Shown: piece by piece, positions 38,541-46,627 of the stretch
How the letters are laid out: every line of letters begins with the position of its first letter
Numbering within the stretch: position 1 is the first letter of the stretch
From: Rhodovastum atsumiense
Lineage (GTDB): Bacteria > Pseudomonadota > Alphaproteobacteria > Acetobacterales > Acetobacteraceae
Length of the DNA: 64,000 bases
Direction: 5' to 3'
Assembly (NCBI RefSeq): GCF_937425535.1
Contig: NZ_OW485601.1
Span: 5,315,501-5,379,500 of the forward strand
The notes under the pieces: model-generated
What the model saw: only the letters and a program-made list of their open reading frames with translations
Databases searched by the model: none
Told to the model about the DNA's origin: nothing
Program-made: the position numbers and the translations under genes

Positions 38541-39662
38541 ATGTCCGGCGGAACCGATCCGAGCGCCCTGGTGGACACGACGACCGAGGCTGCCCACCCG
38601 ACGAAGCGCCTCGCAATGCCGCTGCCCGAGAACGCCAGCACGGTGTTTCTCGGTGGGTTGTTCGTGCTGGCCTGTCTCGGCGCGCTGTATCTGGCCAGCG
38701 AGATCGTGTTGCCGATCATGCTGGCCTTCGTGCTGAACCTGCTGCTGCAGCCGGTGGTGCGGTTGCTCGTGCGGTTGTGGTTGCCGCGCGCGCTCGCGGC
38801 GGTGGTGGCGGTCGTCCTGCTGGTGTCGGTGGTTGGCGGGATGGGCACTGCCCTCAGCGGTCCCGCCGCAACCTGGGCCGAACGGCTGCCTGAGGCGGTG
38901 CCACGCCTGCAGAAGCAGTTGCGTTTCCTGAACCATCCGATCGCGATGGGAGAGCGCATGCTTGCGCAGGTGCAGGGCACGACGATCGGAGCGGGACCGC
39001 CCTCCGAGGGGCAGCCGGTGCGGCTCGTGAACCTGTTCGATACGCTGTTCTCCGGCACCCGCGCGCTGGCCGGGGGTGTGTTCACGACATTGCTGGTGCT
39101 GATCTACCTGCTGATCTTCGGCGAGTTGTTCCTGCGCCGCATGGTCGAGATCCTGCCACACCCCGGCGACAAGCGCCGGGCGGTGGAGATCACGCTGCGC
39201 ATCGAGCATGACCTGTCATCCTACCTGCTGACGGTCACCACCATCAACGCAGTGGTCGGTGTGGCAACGGGAGGGGTGATGGCGCTTTGTGGCATGCCGG
39301 ATGCCGTGCTGTGGGGGGCCGCGGCGTTCATGCTGAATTTCGTGCCGATCCTGGGCCCGTTGATGGGCGTGGTGCTGTTCGTGTTGGCCGGTGCGCTGGC
39401 GTTGGGCGTCCACTGGGTGGCGGTTCTGCCGGCGGGGCTGTACCTCATCATCCACCTGGCAGAGGGCGAGGTCGTGACGCCGCTGCTGCTCTCACGGCGC
39501 TTCACCATTAATCCGGTGGCACTCGTCCTGGCCCTGGTGTTCTGGTACTGGATGTGGGGCATTGCCGGTGCGGTGCTGGCAGTGCCGATGCTGGCCATTA
39601 CCAAGATTATCTGCGATGATATTCCATCACTGCGCGCCCTCGGGCATTTCCTGGAGGGATAA
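38541..39662 (+). CDS. AI-2E family transporter (PerM-like)
   Basis: A 373-residue membrane protein with eight predicted helices. The family patterns are LYLASEIVLPIMLAFVLNLLLQPVVR, FGELFLRRMVEILP, LLTVTTINAVVGVATG, LNFVPILGPLMGVVLF and a C-terminal LALVFWYWMWGIAGAVLAVP. Members export small molecules or ions (AI-2 or Na+/H+ reported for some). It is likely cotranscribed with the lipid methyltransferase gene. Confidence 0.85.
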   Translation: MSGGTDPSALVDTTTEAAHPTKRLAMPLPENASTVFLGGLFVLACLGALYLASEIVLPIMLAFVLNLLLQPVVRLLVRLWLPRALAAVVAVVLLVSVVGGMGTALSGPAATWAERLPEAVPRLQKQLRFLNHPIAMGERMLAQVQGTTIGAGPPSEGQPVRLVNLFDTLFSGTRALAGGVFTTLLVLIYLLIFGELFLRRMVEILPHPGDKRRAVEITLRIEHDLSSYLLTVTTINAVVGVATGGVMALCGMPDAVLWGAAAFMLNFVPILGPLMGVVLFVLAGALALGVHWVAVLPAGLYLIIHLAEGEVVTPLLLSRRFTINPVALVLALVFWYWMWGIAGAVLAVPMLAITKIICDDIPSLRALGHFLEG

Positions 39663-39876
39663 TTTGCAGGTCTTGCCTGGACCTGCGCGCGTGATCACGC
39701 CTTGCAGTGTCACGCCATGCCTCGCACGGATCGCCTGGGAAAGTTCCACCTCCGCGACGGAAACAGCTGTCAGGGTAATGGATGAAAGGGACGCGACGGG
39801 CGCGGCCACACAGGGCCGCGGCGGCGAACCGCGTGCCCCACGCAGAAGTGGACCGATGGGCAACGCCCTGCCGCTG

Positions 39877-40524
39877 TCAGCCGTAACGGAATGACAGCAC
39901 CTCCGGAGGCATGGTCACGTCCGGCAGGTTGCGTGGATCGGCGACCGGCGCATCGACGCGCACGCCCACGGGTACAACGCCGGCCCAGGCAGGAAAACAG
40001 TAGTCGGTATCGTCGTCTTCCGGTTGGCCGGTGCGCACCTTGGCGGAGGCTTCGGCAAGCGGGAGTGACAACAGCGCGGTGGCTTTCAGTTCCTGGTCAG
40101 TGACCGGCCGCAGCCGGTCCCATTGCCCGGGGACGAGGCCATTGACGAAGCGTGCCAACTGGCGCCGCTTCTCGTCGTCATCGGTGATCTTCCGTGCGGT
40201 GCCGAATACCATCACGGAACGGTGGTTGATGTTGTAGTTGTAGGCCGAGCGGGCCAGCACCAGGCCGTCGACGATCGAGATGCAGACGCAGACTTCCTGG
40301 CCATCGACACTGCGCATCATGCGGCTGGCGTTGGAGCCGTGCCAGTAGAGCGTGTCGCCCTCGCGCCATTGCATGATCGGTGTCACCACCGGCCGGCCTT
40401 CGTGCACATAGGCGATATGGGCGAAAGGCATCGCGTCGATGATGCCGTGGATCGTCTCCGTGTCGTATTTGGCCAGCCAGTGATAACGCCTGACCCGCGT
40501 GCGCTCGCTTGGTGCCTCGCTCAT
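39877..40524 (-). CDS. Pyridoxamine 5'-phosphate oxidase-like flavin split-barrel protein (Pyridox_ox_2 type)
   Basis: A 215-residue split-barrel protein. Features: RVRRYHWLAKYDTETIHGII at the N-terminus, FAHIAYVHEGRPVVTPIMQW, TLYWHGSNASRMMRS, and VDGLVLARSAYNYNINHRSVMVFGTAR, ending with DDDTDYCFPAWAGVVPV. These match the Pyridox_ox_2 group of PNPOx-like proteins, which bind flavin or haem; true PNPOx activity is unlikely. It is divergent from anfH with a 512-bp shared upstream region. Anf3, an oxygen-consuming FAD/haem protein needed with Fe-nitrogenase in Rhodobacter, may belong to the same fold; I cannot verify this here, so an Anf3-like role is speculative. Other residues near the usual HH-x-x-N motif are changed to NYNIN. 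Confidence 0.8.
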   Translation of the reverse strand: MSEAPSERTRVRRYHWLAKYDTETIHGIIDAMPFAHIAYVHEGRPVVTPIMQWREGDTLYWHGSNASRMMRSVDGQEVCVCISIVDGLVLARSAYNYNINHRSVMVFGTARKITDDDEKRRQLARFVNGLVPGQWDRLRPVTDQELKATALLSLPLAEASAKVRTGQPEDDDTDYCFPAWAGVVPVGVRVDAPVADPRNLPDVTMPPEVLSFRYG

Positions 40525-41864
<1,340 letters not shown>

Positions 41865-41872
41865 GCCGATGA

Positions 41873-43504
<1,632 letters not shown>

Positions 43505-43515
43505 GGGAGGTTGCC

Positions 43516-43872
43516 ATGACGCATTACGACCTGCCCAAAGAGCGTGTCGAACTGATGGTCGACCATATTCTGAAGAACTGCCTGTGGCAGTTCCACTCGC
43601 GCTCCTGGGACCGCAAGCGGCAGAATGCCGAGATCCTGCTGAAGACCCGGCAGATCCTCTGCGGCGAGCCGATGGCCACCGACACCCCGGCCGACCGCTG
43701 CTACATGGCCGACGCCATCTGCCTCGCCGAAGCCTACCAGGAAAAGTTCCCCTGGCTCGCCGACATGGACAAGGAGGAGATCAAGCTGCTGATCGCCACG
43801 CTGCACGAGCGGCTCGATCATCTCACCATCGGCGGCTCGCTGAACGAAGAGCTCAACGACCAGCATTACTGA
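43516..43872 (+). CDS. anfG: Fe-only nitrogenase delta subunit
   Basis: A 118-residue small subunit found only in alternative nitrogenases. It reads [20 protein letters not shown] at the start, then [20 protein letters not shown] and the C-terminal [17 protein letters not shown], all typical of AnfG rather than VnfG. It starts 11 bp after anfD (Shine-Dalgarno GGGAGG) and ends 13 bp before anfK. The delta subunit stabilises the complex and helps cofactor insertion. Confidence 0.95.
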
Positions 43873-43885
43873 CGGGGGACCCCTC

Positions 43886-45274
43886 ATGACCTGCGAACTG
43901 AAGGCCAAGGACCGGCTTGGCACGATCAATCCGATCTTCACCTGTCAGCCAGCCGGTGCGCAGTACGCCAGCATCGGCATCAAGGATTGCATCGGCATCG
44001 TGCATGGCGGCCAGGGCTGCGTCATGTTTGTCCGCCTGCTGATCTCCCAGCACCTGAAGGAGAGCTTCGAGATCGCGTCTTCCTCGGTGCACGAGGACGG
44101 CGCGGTGTTCGGCGCGCTCGACCGGGTGGAGACGGCGGTGGACGTGCTGCTGACCCGCTATCCGCATGTGAAGGTGGTGCCGATCATCACCACCTGTTCC
44201 ACCGAGATCATCGGCGACGACGTCGACGGGCTCGTCAACAAGCTCAACGAGGGCCTGCTGAAGGAGAAGTTCGCCGACCGGGAGATCCACCTGATCCCGG
44301 TGCATACGCCCAGCTTCGTCGGCAGCATGGTGCACGGCTACGACAACGCCGTGCGCGATTTCGTCCGCCACTTCGCGCAGAAGGGCGAGCCCAACGGCAA
44401 GATCAACCTGCTGACCGGCTGGGCGAACCCAGGCGACGTGAAGGAACTGAAGTCGCTGCTGCACGAGATGGATGTCGACGCCACGGTGCTGTTCGAAATC
44501 GAGAGCTTCGACTCGCCGCTGATGCCCGACAAGAGCGCGGTGTCCCACGGCGCCACCACCATCGCCGACCTGCAGAGCACCGGCAGCGCGCTGGCGACGG
44601 TCGCGCTGAACCGCTACGAGGGCGCCAAGGCCGCCACCTACCTGGAGGAAGAGTTCGGCGTGCCGGCGGTGATCGGCCCGAGCCCGATCGGCATCCGCAA
44701 CACCGACACCTTCCTGCACACCCTGCGCCGTCTGACCGGCAAGCCGATCCCGCGCTCGCTGGTGGAGGCGCGCGGCGTGGCCATCGACGCGATCACCGAC
44801 CTGACCCACATGTTCCTCGCCGACAAGAAGGTCGCGATCTACGGCAATCCCGACCTGGTGATCGGGCTCGCCGAGTTCTGCCTCGATCTGGAAATGAAGC
44901 CGGTGCTGCTGCTGCTCGGCGACGACAACGCGGCCTATGGGGATGATCCGCGGATCAAGGCGCTGCAGGACGGCGTCGACTTCGACATGGAGATCATCAG
45001 CAACGCCGATTTGTGGGAGCTGGAGGATCGTATCAAGAACCGTGGGCTCGAACTGGACCTGATCCTCGGCCATTCCAAGGGACGCTTCGTCTCGATCGAG
45101 TACAACATCCCGATGGTGCGGGTGGGCTTCCCGACCTATGACCGTGCCGGGCTCTATCGCTACCCGGTGGTCGGTTACACCGGTGCGACCTGGCTCGCCG
45201 AGCAGATGGCCAACGCGCTGTTCACCGACATGGAGCACAAGAAGAACAAGGAGTGGATCCTGAACGTGTGGTGA
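43886..45274 (+). CDS. anfK: Fe-only nitrogenase beta subunit
   Basis: A 462-residue subunit that completes the P-cluster with Cys20 (IFTCQPAGAQ), Cys45 (GGQGCVMF) and Cys104 (TTCSTEIIGDD). ASIGIKDCIGIVHGGQGC and LGHSKGRFVSIEYNIP are family signatures. It lacks the long N-terminal extension of NifK, as expected for AnfK. The last residues NKEWILNVW resemble other AnfK proteins. The next gene lies 86 bp downstream. No anfA, anfO, anfR or cofactor-assembly gene is within the window, so those functions must be encoded elsewhere. Confidence 0.97.
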   Translation: MTCELKAKDRLGTINPIFTCQPAGAQYASIGIKDCIGIVHGGQGCVMFVRLLISQHLKESFEIASSSVHEDGAVFGALDRVETAVDVLLTRYPHVKVVPIITTCSTEIIGDDVDGLVNKLNEGLLKEKFADREIHLIPVHTPSFVGSMVHGYDNAVRDFVRHFAQKGEPNGKINLLTGWANPGDVKELKSLLHEMDVDATVLFEIESFDSPLMPDKSAVSHGATTIADLQSTGSALATVALNRYEGAKAATYLEEEFGVPAVIGPSPIGIRNTDTFLHTLRRLTGKPIPRSLVEARGVAIDAITDLTHMFLADKKVAIYGNPDLVIGLAEFCLDLEMKPVLLLLGDDNAAYGDDPRIKALQDGVDFDMEIISNADLWELEDRIKNRGLELDLILGHSKGRFVSIEYNIPMVRVGFPTYDRAGLYRYPVVGYTGATWLAEQMANALFTDMEHKKNKEWILNVW

Positions 45275-45360
45275 TCGGCGTTCCGGGGCGGGGGAGGGAT
45301 GCCTCCGTCCCGGTGGCGGTGAGCGACCATTGGCGTTTCAGGGAACCGGAAGGCGGGGCC

Positions 45361-45801
45361 ATGGGCTACGAGATGATCGAGGCGGACCGGGAGATGTTCG
45401 AGCGGAGCTGGCGCGACGCCCAGGGCTATCATCGCCGGGCTGCCCAGTTCGCCGCGGAGGGCCAGCGGCCGAGCCTGGTGTTCAATGTTGGCTCGGTGGC
45501 GCTGGAGCGCTACCTGGTGGCCCTGTGCGCCCTGCACGGGGCGATGCCGTTCAACCACAACTACACCGCGCTGGCGTTGGCGGCGGAGAGCGTGGTCGCG
45601 GTGCCGGCGGCGCTGGTCGGGGAGATCCGTTCACTCGACCGGATCTTCAACATCTGCTCGGTCGATGACTACCATCACGGCGAGCCGGAGCCCGACGACG
45701 CCCGGCGCGTGCTGGCCATGTGCGAGGGCGTGCGCGCGCTGTTCGACCCGGCCGCGATCGAAAAGCTGCGTGCGGAGGTCAGCCCAGCTCGAACGTCGTG
45801 A
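45361..45801 (+). CDS. HEPN-domain-like protein downstream of anfK
   Basis: A 146-residue, mostly helical protein. FNVGSVALERYLVALCALHG followed by MPFNHNYTALALAAESV resembles the HEPN core (S-x-x-A-E-x-x-L-K-A-L-x-x...H). The catalytic R-x4-6-H ribonuclease motif is not clearly present (RDAQGYH near residue 18 is the nearest). It is on the same strand 86 bp after anfK, with GGAAGGCGGGG before the ATG, and is probably the last gene of the nitrogenase transcript. It does not resemble AnfO or AnfR as I know them. An in-frame upstream start overlapping the anfK end is less likely. Function unknown. Confidence 0.7.
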   Translation: MGYEMIEADREMFERSWRDAQGYHRRAAQFAAEGQRPSLVFNVGSVALERYLVALCALHGAMPFNHNYTALALAAESVVAVPAALVGEIRSLDRIFNICSVDDYHHGEPEPDDARRVLAMCEGVRALFDPAAIEKLRAEVSPARTS

Positions 45802-46627
45802 TGCCGAAAACCTGCGCCAGGGCCAGCATGGGCGCGGTGCCCGTGTACATGCGCGCGGTCTCGAACACCGGCGTCATGCCGGCCTGCTGCGCCAGTGCCA
45901 GCGCCGCGGTGTTCGGCTCCGGCACGTCGAGGAACACCGGGCCGGGCGGGGCGGCGGCAAGCAGGCCGGCAAACAGCGCCGCGGCGACGCCGTCGTCCTG
46001 CGCCACCAGCGGACCGATCTTCGCCCCGTCCCGGCAGGGGCGGATCACGCCGTAGCCTCTTGCCGTTCCATCGGCGATGGCCGCCAGGGCGACATGGCCG
46101 GGGGCCGCCAGCCAGTGGTGCAGGAACGCCTCGCGCGGGACGGGAAAACACAGCCGGTCCAGTCCGGCGATCGCCGCGAAGGGCAGGGTGGCGGCCGGTT
46201 GCAGTGCAAAATCGGCGGGTGACGGCGCCGGCGGGCGCGGCGTGTCGGCCAGGGCGAAACGGATGTTCCGATGCGCGAACGCGAAGCCGGAGCGTCGGTA
46301 ATTCTCCTGTTGCGCGATCACTCCGTCGAGCCCGACGCTGCGCCCGGCGAACCGCGCCATGGCGGCACGCCACAGCGCCATGCCGATGCCACGGCCGCGA
46401 TGGCCGGGGCGCACGATATAGAGGCCGAGGAAGCCAAACTCCGGCCCGTAGCACACCGCCGAGATGCAGCCGAGCGGGATGTCGTCCTGCTCGGCGACCA
46501 GGAAGCCTTGCGGGTCGGCAATCCGGAAAGCCGCGGCATCGCCCAGGCCGGGGTTCCAGCCTTCCTCGGCGGCCCAGCCGAGTGCCAGGTCAACTTCGGC
46601 AGGAAACATGCTGCGGATGGTGGCCAT
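45779..46627 (-). CDS. GNAT acetyltransferase, two-domain
   Basis: A 282-residue protein. The N-terminal GNAT domain (residues ~1-130) has GFLGLYIVRPGHRGRGIGMALW, the acetyl-CoA binding Q/RxxGxG/A pyrophosphate loop (RGRGIG). A second, degenerate domain follows (FLHHWLAAPGHVALAAIADG, GPVFLDVPEPNTAALALAQQAGM), as in Acetyltransf_18-type enzymes. The substrate is unknown. It converges on the HEPN-like gene with a 23-bp overlap. The start is ATG 46627. Confidence 0.82.
   Translation of the reverse strand: MATIRSMFPAEVDLALGWAAEEGWNPGLGDAAAFRIADPQGFLVAEQDDIPLGCISAVCYGPEFGFLGLYIVRPGHRGRGIGMALWRAAMARFAGRSVGLDGVIAQQENYRRSGFAFAHRNIRFALADTPRPPAPSPADFALQPAATLPFAAIAGLDRLCFPVPREAFLHHWLAAPGHVALAAIADGTARGYGVIRPCRDGAKIGPLVAQDDGVAAALFAGLLAAAPPGPVFLDVPEPNTAALALAQQAGMTPVFETARMYTGTAPMLALAQVFGITTFELG

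Follow-up and report, generated by a model that had tools for sequence, protein, structure and literature searches.

In the stretch of the Rhodovastum atsumiense genome analysed here (64,000 nucleotides, the window), the structural genes of an Fe-only nitrogenase lie on one strand between positions 41037 and 45274. The gene for the Fe protein, anfH (41037..41864, +), is recognised by PF00142, with its start methionine placed by hand, and is followed by anfD for the alpha subunit (41936..43504, +; TIGR01861, 1085 bits, cut-off 873.8), anfG for the 118-aa delta subunit (43516..43872, +; TIGR02929, 171.5 bits, cut-off 124.7) and anfK for the beta subunit (43886..45274, +; equivalog TIGR02931, 942 bits, cut-off 853.85). 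Divergent from anfH is a homologue of the flavocytochrome gene anf3 (39877..40524, -), whose start at 40524 was counted by hand; phmmer matched its segment 39877-40488 to 6rk0, which we take to be the Anf3 of A. vinelandii, at an E-value of 9.5e-80. The last gene of the anf run (45361..45801, +) is an open reading frame for a protein of 146 aa, with relatives behind anfK in three other genomes and a product predicted to have a HEPN fold. Here we consider what this HEPN gene contributes to the system beside which it lies.

Since anfK ends at 45274, the gap between the two genes is 86 bp (45275..45360, +); it contains a GC-rich hairpin with an RNA folding energy of -42.8 kcal/mol. The first-pass annotation had set the gene directly after anfK on the same strand, across this gap and with a good Shine-Dalgarno sequence, and both statements hold: the reading frame is present, the AnfK equivalog match ends at 45274, and GGAAGG stands upstream of the ATG. 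The frame is open upstream as far as a GTG at 45253, and the three aligned relatives start at this ATG or three residues before it. From the other side a GNAT acetyltransferase gene at 45779 (-) converges on the HEPN gene, the coding ends overlapping by 23 bp. The G+C content is 69.2% in the HEPN gene, 61-64% in anfHDGK and 68.1% in the window. No AnfA-type TAC-N6-GTA site was found in a scan of positions 39000 to 46500, and matches to a sigma-54 pattern in the window were not above chance (9 against 12.5 expected). A sigma-54-like element with two mismatches, one that must be read against this window total, lies at 40693-40708 (-), upstream of the divergent anf3 homologue.

The fold was modelled with AlphaFold for the window protein and for its relative in an Aeromonadaceae metagenome-assembled genome (MAG; locus L003), each from the same two-sequence alignment. 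The two models reached a pLDDT of 81.7 and a pTM of 0.79 (window) and 80.9 and 0.80 (L003). The three best Foldseek matches of the window model were 1wol, 1ufb and 2hsb, and those of the relative were 1wol and two chains of 4nqf, all at probability 1.00, with 2hsb in 17th place for the relative; E-values for both models were weak (0.02-0.1), at query TM-scores of 0.54-0.70. The PDB titles of 1wol, 2hsb and 4nqf name HEPN proteins, and 1ufb (TT1696) is presumably one as well. We thus have good confidence in the prediction that the anf-linked protein is a HEPN helical bundle, the fold of the superfamily that includes 1wol, 4nqf, 2hsb and PF05168. By sequence it stands apart: no Pfam family exceeds its cut-off for the window protein, and the best PF05168 score among the four members, in one of the three relatives, is 18.1 bits (cut-off 22). 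Apart from that weak match, nothing useful came of searching Pfam, NCBIfam, PADLOC and PDB sequences, whether with the protein or with an alignment of its few members. The earlier description of the protein as HEPN-like is therefore borne out by the two models, whose best matches are solved HEPN proteins, and falls short at the Pfam cut-off.

The protein also differs from typical members of the superfamily in its motifs. The R-x4-6-H RNase motif is conserved in no register across the four sequences. Each has one R-x4-6-H in helix 1, which we put down to chance; in the window protein it is a single R-x5-H (R18-H24) whose arginine varies among the relatives, in agreement with the earlier remark that a clear catalytic motif is lacking. 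What is conserved instead (window numbering) is N42, E49, H59, the motif MPxNHxY with H66 and Y68, and the motif CSxDxYxHGxP with D102, Y104, H106, G107 and P109. As described in the part of PMC3710099 available, another HEPN family has lost the arginine and kept the histidine, so an unusual active site could yet exist in the anf-linked protein. Identity among the HEPN proteins is 44-54% across lineages, and between the two closest copies dN is 0.08-0.09 and dS 1.6-1.9, a dN/dS of about 0.05; the protein is under purifying selection.

Relatives were sought in several ways. Scanning the genome contigs of 84,980 species with a sequence pattern, a method that requires short exact peptide matches and missed two carriers found later, gave one relative, 53% identical, in the Aeromonadaceae MAG (genome G1182). 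At its locus, L003, the HEPN gene directly follows anfK and is succeeded by a PPOx gene and then by anfO. In the Aeromonadaceae family, AnfK exceeded its cut-off in 3 of 75 genomes, and in each of the three anfK is immediately followed by the HEPN gene (the other two at loci L043 and L044). These are the only other carriers found. The first-pass annotation had suggested looking behind anfK in other alphaproteobacteria; the arrangement holds in the window and, within the sample, is not general in that class, as the gene occurs in 0/6 of the anf clusters that exceeded the AnfK cut-off among 55 genomes of another alphaproteobacterial family (f43). Among 150 genomes of the window's own family, the protein matched only the window's genome and, weakly, a long unrelated frame of 651 aa in G120 (E 9e-4, 33% identity across residues 42-132), which was set aside; a second weak match, within the window's genome itself (E 0.47), was also set aside.

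To relate these occurrences to the nitrogenase, a profile of the four members was run against 80 genomes, consisting of the window's genome, one further genome (G533), 65 of the 75 Aeromonadaceae-family genomes and 13 of the 55 f43 genomes, the last chosen for an AnfK or VnfK-like match. It matched in four of ten genomes with anf and in none of 70 without (Fisher's exact test, 1.3e-4; 1.1e-3 if the two carriers that are close relatives are taken as one), two marginal matches in G1239 and G1222, which cover some 50 residues in frames of 251-254 aa at E-values of 0.011 and 0.046, being counted as none. The ten anf-positive genomes come from three families and are a non-random draw, with carriers numbering only four, in three lineages. 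In all four the HEPN gene is the next one after anfK, on the same strand; in the three relatives its neighbours are anfK and the PPOx gene, with a single base between HEPN and PPOx genes in L043. A tblastn search of 17 VnfK-like loci, extended in both directions by as much as 1.5 kb, did not find the gene; these loci are AnfK-model matches below the cut-off, of which that of the window's genome alone was checked further with the vnfK model. The link of the HEPN gene to anf is real, and its homologues are not scattered in the sample. Random scatter and a structure unlike HEPN were the two outcomes that the first-pass annotation named as speaking against its reading, and neither was seen.

The mobile fraction and wider taxonomic draws added no carriers. 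Neither the 72,556 plasmid records nor the 50,697 phage records contained a relative of the HEPN protein, and neither the AnfK search nor the HEPN pair search found a relative in viral contigs. Among plasmids, the AnfK search gave three Nostoc records, 61.5-61.9% identical; two carry the annotation vnfK. Above the cut-off it was found once in 385 genomes drawn from the class, once in 398 from the phylum, once in 377 from the window's own family, once in 7 from the genus and never in 247 from one other family; these draws overlap, and each match is the window's own genome.

The clusters without the HEPN gene indicate what else may occupy its place. All six follow the order anfHDGK-AnfO-GGCT-like, with AnfO confirmed by profile in every one. 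The GGCT/AIG2-like protein at the anfR position was matched by PF13772 and PF06094 in L026 and located by tblastn in the other five, and in three clusters (L026-L028) a PPOx gene comes after it, checked by profile in L026. Since the order in Rhodobacter capsulatus is anfHDGK-anfO-anfR-anf3, according to the portions available of PMC7294313, PMC6925177 and PMC6579470, we infer by position that the GGCT-like gene is AnfR. AnfR (Azotobacter orf2, Rhodobacter anf2) is, like the HEPN gene, an anf-specific accessory downstream of anfK; it differs in belonging, as identified by position in the six clusters, to the GGCT/AIG2-like family and in lying behind anfO, whereas the HEPN gene is directly behind anfK. 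The GGCT protein had no match at E 0.1 in the whole genomes of two of the four carriers (the window's genome and G1182) and none in the anf loci of the other two (L043 in G1255, L044 in G1252). Within the sample, HEPN and GGCT-AnfR are mutually exclusive (four clusters against six).

The same comparison can be made for AnfO (PF09582, TIGR02940), a further anf-specific accessory encoded downstream of anfK, whose sequence family the HEPN protein does not match. In the carriers L003 and L043 anfO lies downstream of the HEPN gene, and in L044 its frame is disturbed; there the 3' end of anfK and the start of anfO look frame-shifted relative to L043, by assembly error or by decay. In the whole genome of the window (7.42 Mb, 100% complete, 9 contigs) the AnfO profile had no match even at E 10. 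The flavoprotein genes of these clusters also vary: the PPOx genes of L026-L028, L003, L043 and L044 look nearer to the Nim type than to Anf3, and the window has an Anf3 homologue. The L043 protein matches 2fg9 at E 2e-21 and 6rk0 at E 6e-6, with Nim models below their cut-offs, and judging by such matches the label 'anf3' may cover two types of flavoprotein.

As to the history of the gene, the AnfK of the window is 82-83% identical to that of clusters without the HEPN gene and 79-80% identical to that of the other carriers, and in an unrooted tree of AnfD and AnfK the carriers fall on separate branches, with support of 29-57 on the key branches. Given these identities, those of the HEPN proteins and the weak support in the tree, the distribution may reflect an old presence followed by losses, or the gene may have been gained more than once.

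We propose that the product of the HEPN gene is probably a helper of the Fe-only nitrogenase, so far unrecognised, because the gene stands behind the anf genes in two distant lineages, at the place where related clusters carry a known helper. The first-pass annotation had arrived at a non-catalytic HEPN partner of Fe-nitrogenase; the anf-linked relatives and the predicted fold support this interpretation, the partnership itself being suggested by genetics. We put about even weight for and against a more specific form of the proposal, namely a HEPN-fold accessory protein that is not an RNase, fills the position of the GGCT-like AnfR, and here possibly that of AnfO too, and acts in maturation. 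In the account of PMC9310841 available, which cites Mylona 1996, loss of AnfR leaves some acetylene reduction and no N2 reduction, and AnfR is thought to serve the same process as AnfO; a HEPN protein in AnfR's place would most simply share AnfR's task. During maturation it would bind either a small ligand or the FeFe protein in its immature form (AnfDGK), with the result that the FeFe-cofactor is inserted in preference to other cofactors, or that a protein competent for N2 is made. Binding is favoured over catalysis since the fold is unrelated and the RNase motif is missing. We infer that the exchange of HEPN for GGCT would be functional and that its site of action would be the maturation of the FeFe protein. 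A replacement of AnfO would be specific to the window's genome, because the Aeromonadaceae clusters retain AnfO, and could equally be plain loss or divergence.

The main rival, drawn by analogy, is a regulatory role like that proposed for MtlR, in which the HEPN protein would control the anf operon by non-catalytic binding of RNA or of AnfA, NifA or VnfA. As described in the part of PMC3710099 at hand, MtlR belongs to the HEPN proteins, frequently lacks the motif and tends to be encoded in the very operon it represses, that of a single metabolic system; motif-less HEPN proteins are proposed there as non-catalytic RNA binders. MtlR serves the mannitol operon, and the anf-linked protein belongs to a different pathway. 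Regulation would suit a gene that is last of the anf run and is preceded by a gap hairpin in the three carriers folded. These hairpins lie at 45275-45360 in the window (z -1.4; 19 of 200 shuffles fold as well), at 5934-5988 in L003 (z -1.9; 13 of 200) and at 6885-6936 in L043 (z -4.8; 0 of 200); that of the window is not clearly beyond base composition, and L043 alone is clearly beyond its shuffles. Separately, the L043 hairpin is followed by a T-run, as in an attenuator, and its stem differs from that of L044 by a compensatory pair change. Against regulation, L026, without a HEPN gene, likewise has a hairpin behind anfK (z -1.5); L029 has none of note (z -0.1). The place is moreover occupied elsewhere by AnfR, a gene whose loss, by the portion of PMC9310841 available, affects N2 reduction, and not by a regulator. 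We consider a regulatory role unlikely.

An AnfR that has diverged beyond easy recognition is more doubtful still. The HEPN protein would then be AnfR itself, the characterised AnfR might be HEPN-like, and the GGCT gene would be something else. This sits poorly with the partial accounts of R. capsulatus cited above, in which anfR lies between AnfO and the PPOx-family Anf3, the very position that the GGCT gene holds between AnfO and PPOx in L026-L028. The two proteins also appear to be without meaningful similarity in sequence: in a small pairwise set the best match of HEPN to GGCT, for one relative, had an E-value of 0.035 over 58 aa, and for the window protein the figure was 0.35 over 10 aa.

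We see only a slim chance that the gene is a non-essential passenger, retained after the horizontal spread of one type of anf cluster and having a minor role outside maturation, for example in protecting against oxygen alongside the PPOx flavoprotein. In the Aeromonadaceae clusters the HEPN gene does come immediately before the PPOx gene, with almost no space between the two in L043, and the divergent gene in the window is an Anf3 homologue. In addition, as reported in the available part of PMC8085987, E. coli given an engineered set of Fe-only nitrogenase genes lacking anfO and anfR made active enzyme, and neither gene seemed strictly needed; this weighs against the maturation proposal too, as a cluster missing AnfR and AnfO may do without any substitute. 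However, six other clusters join AnfO, the GGCT gene and in three cases also PPOx without any HEPN gene, and the AnfK of the window is closer to that of these clusters than to that of the carriers. An RNase toxin or defence protein, behind anfK by accident, is very improbable and was rejected, motif, partner and spread all being missing: toxins are numerous among HEPN proteins, and toxicity is possible even where the motif is lacking (by the available part of PMC3710099), but the gene lies behind anfK in three AnfDK lineages and in none of the 70 genomes without anf, no PADLOC model matches any of the four proteins, the plasmid and phage records hold no match, R-x4-6-H is not conserved, and the next gene encodes the GNAT acetyltransferase rather than the nucleotidyltransferase antitoxin that adjoins HEPN in HEPN-MNT systems and is likewise missing beside the three relatives.

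Returning to the proposed helper role, the window's genome carries a second alternative nitrogenase, of V type. Elsewhere in this genome (C1:334421-335800, L008) lies the gene for a V-type beta subunit, whose best model is vnfK at 871.2 bits, just below the cut-off of 873.95; homologues of NifE and NifN and NifX-like proteins are encoded beside it. A 321-aa gene without an NCBIfam family follows directly behind this vnfK, and a lookalike of it, judged by eye, stands beside the VnfK-like gene of G533 (L009). By the accounts available from PMC9310841 and PMC11938142, AnfO prevents FeV- and FeMo-cofactor from entering the FeFe protein; with a V-type nitrogenase, the window's genome therefore presumably has the cofactor-sorting problem that AnfO solves.

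We tentatively suggest, as a scenario we think rather unlikely as a whole, that Fe-only nitrogenase has acquired a HEPN-fold protein as a factor for its maturation or fidelity, and that this protein has displaced AnfR, to which it is unrelated, and within the lineage of the window AnfO as well. In the literature searched we found no report of an anf-linked HEPN gene. If the suggestion is true, a cell that also makes a V-nitrogenase keeps its FeFe protein free of the wrong cofactors without AnfO. A natural operon with a HEPN-fold protein at the place expected of AnfR, and with AnfO missing, is an alternative accessory set that is directly testable, and two unrelated families in one place would suggest that the task of AnfR is one of binding and not a GGCT-type enzyme reaction.
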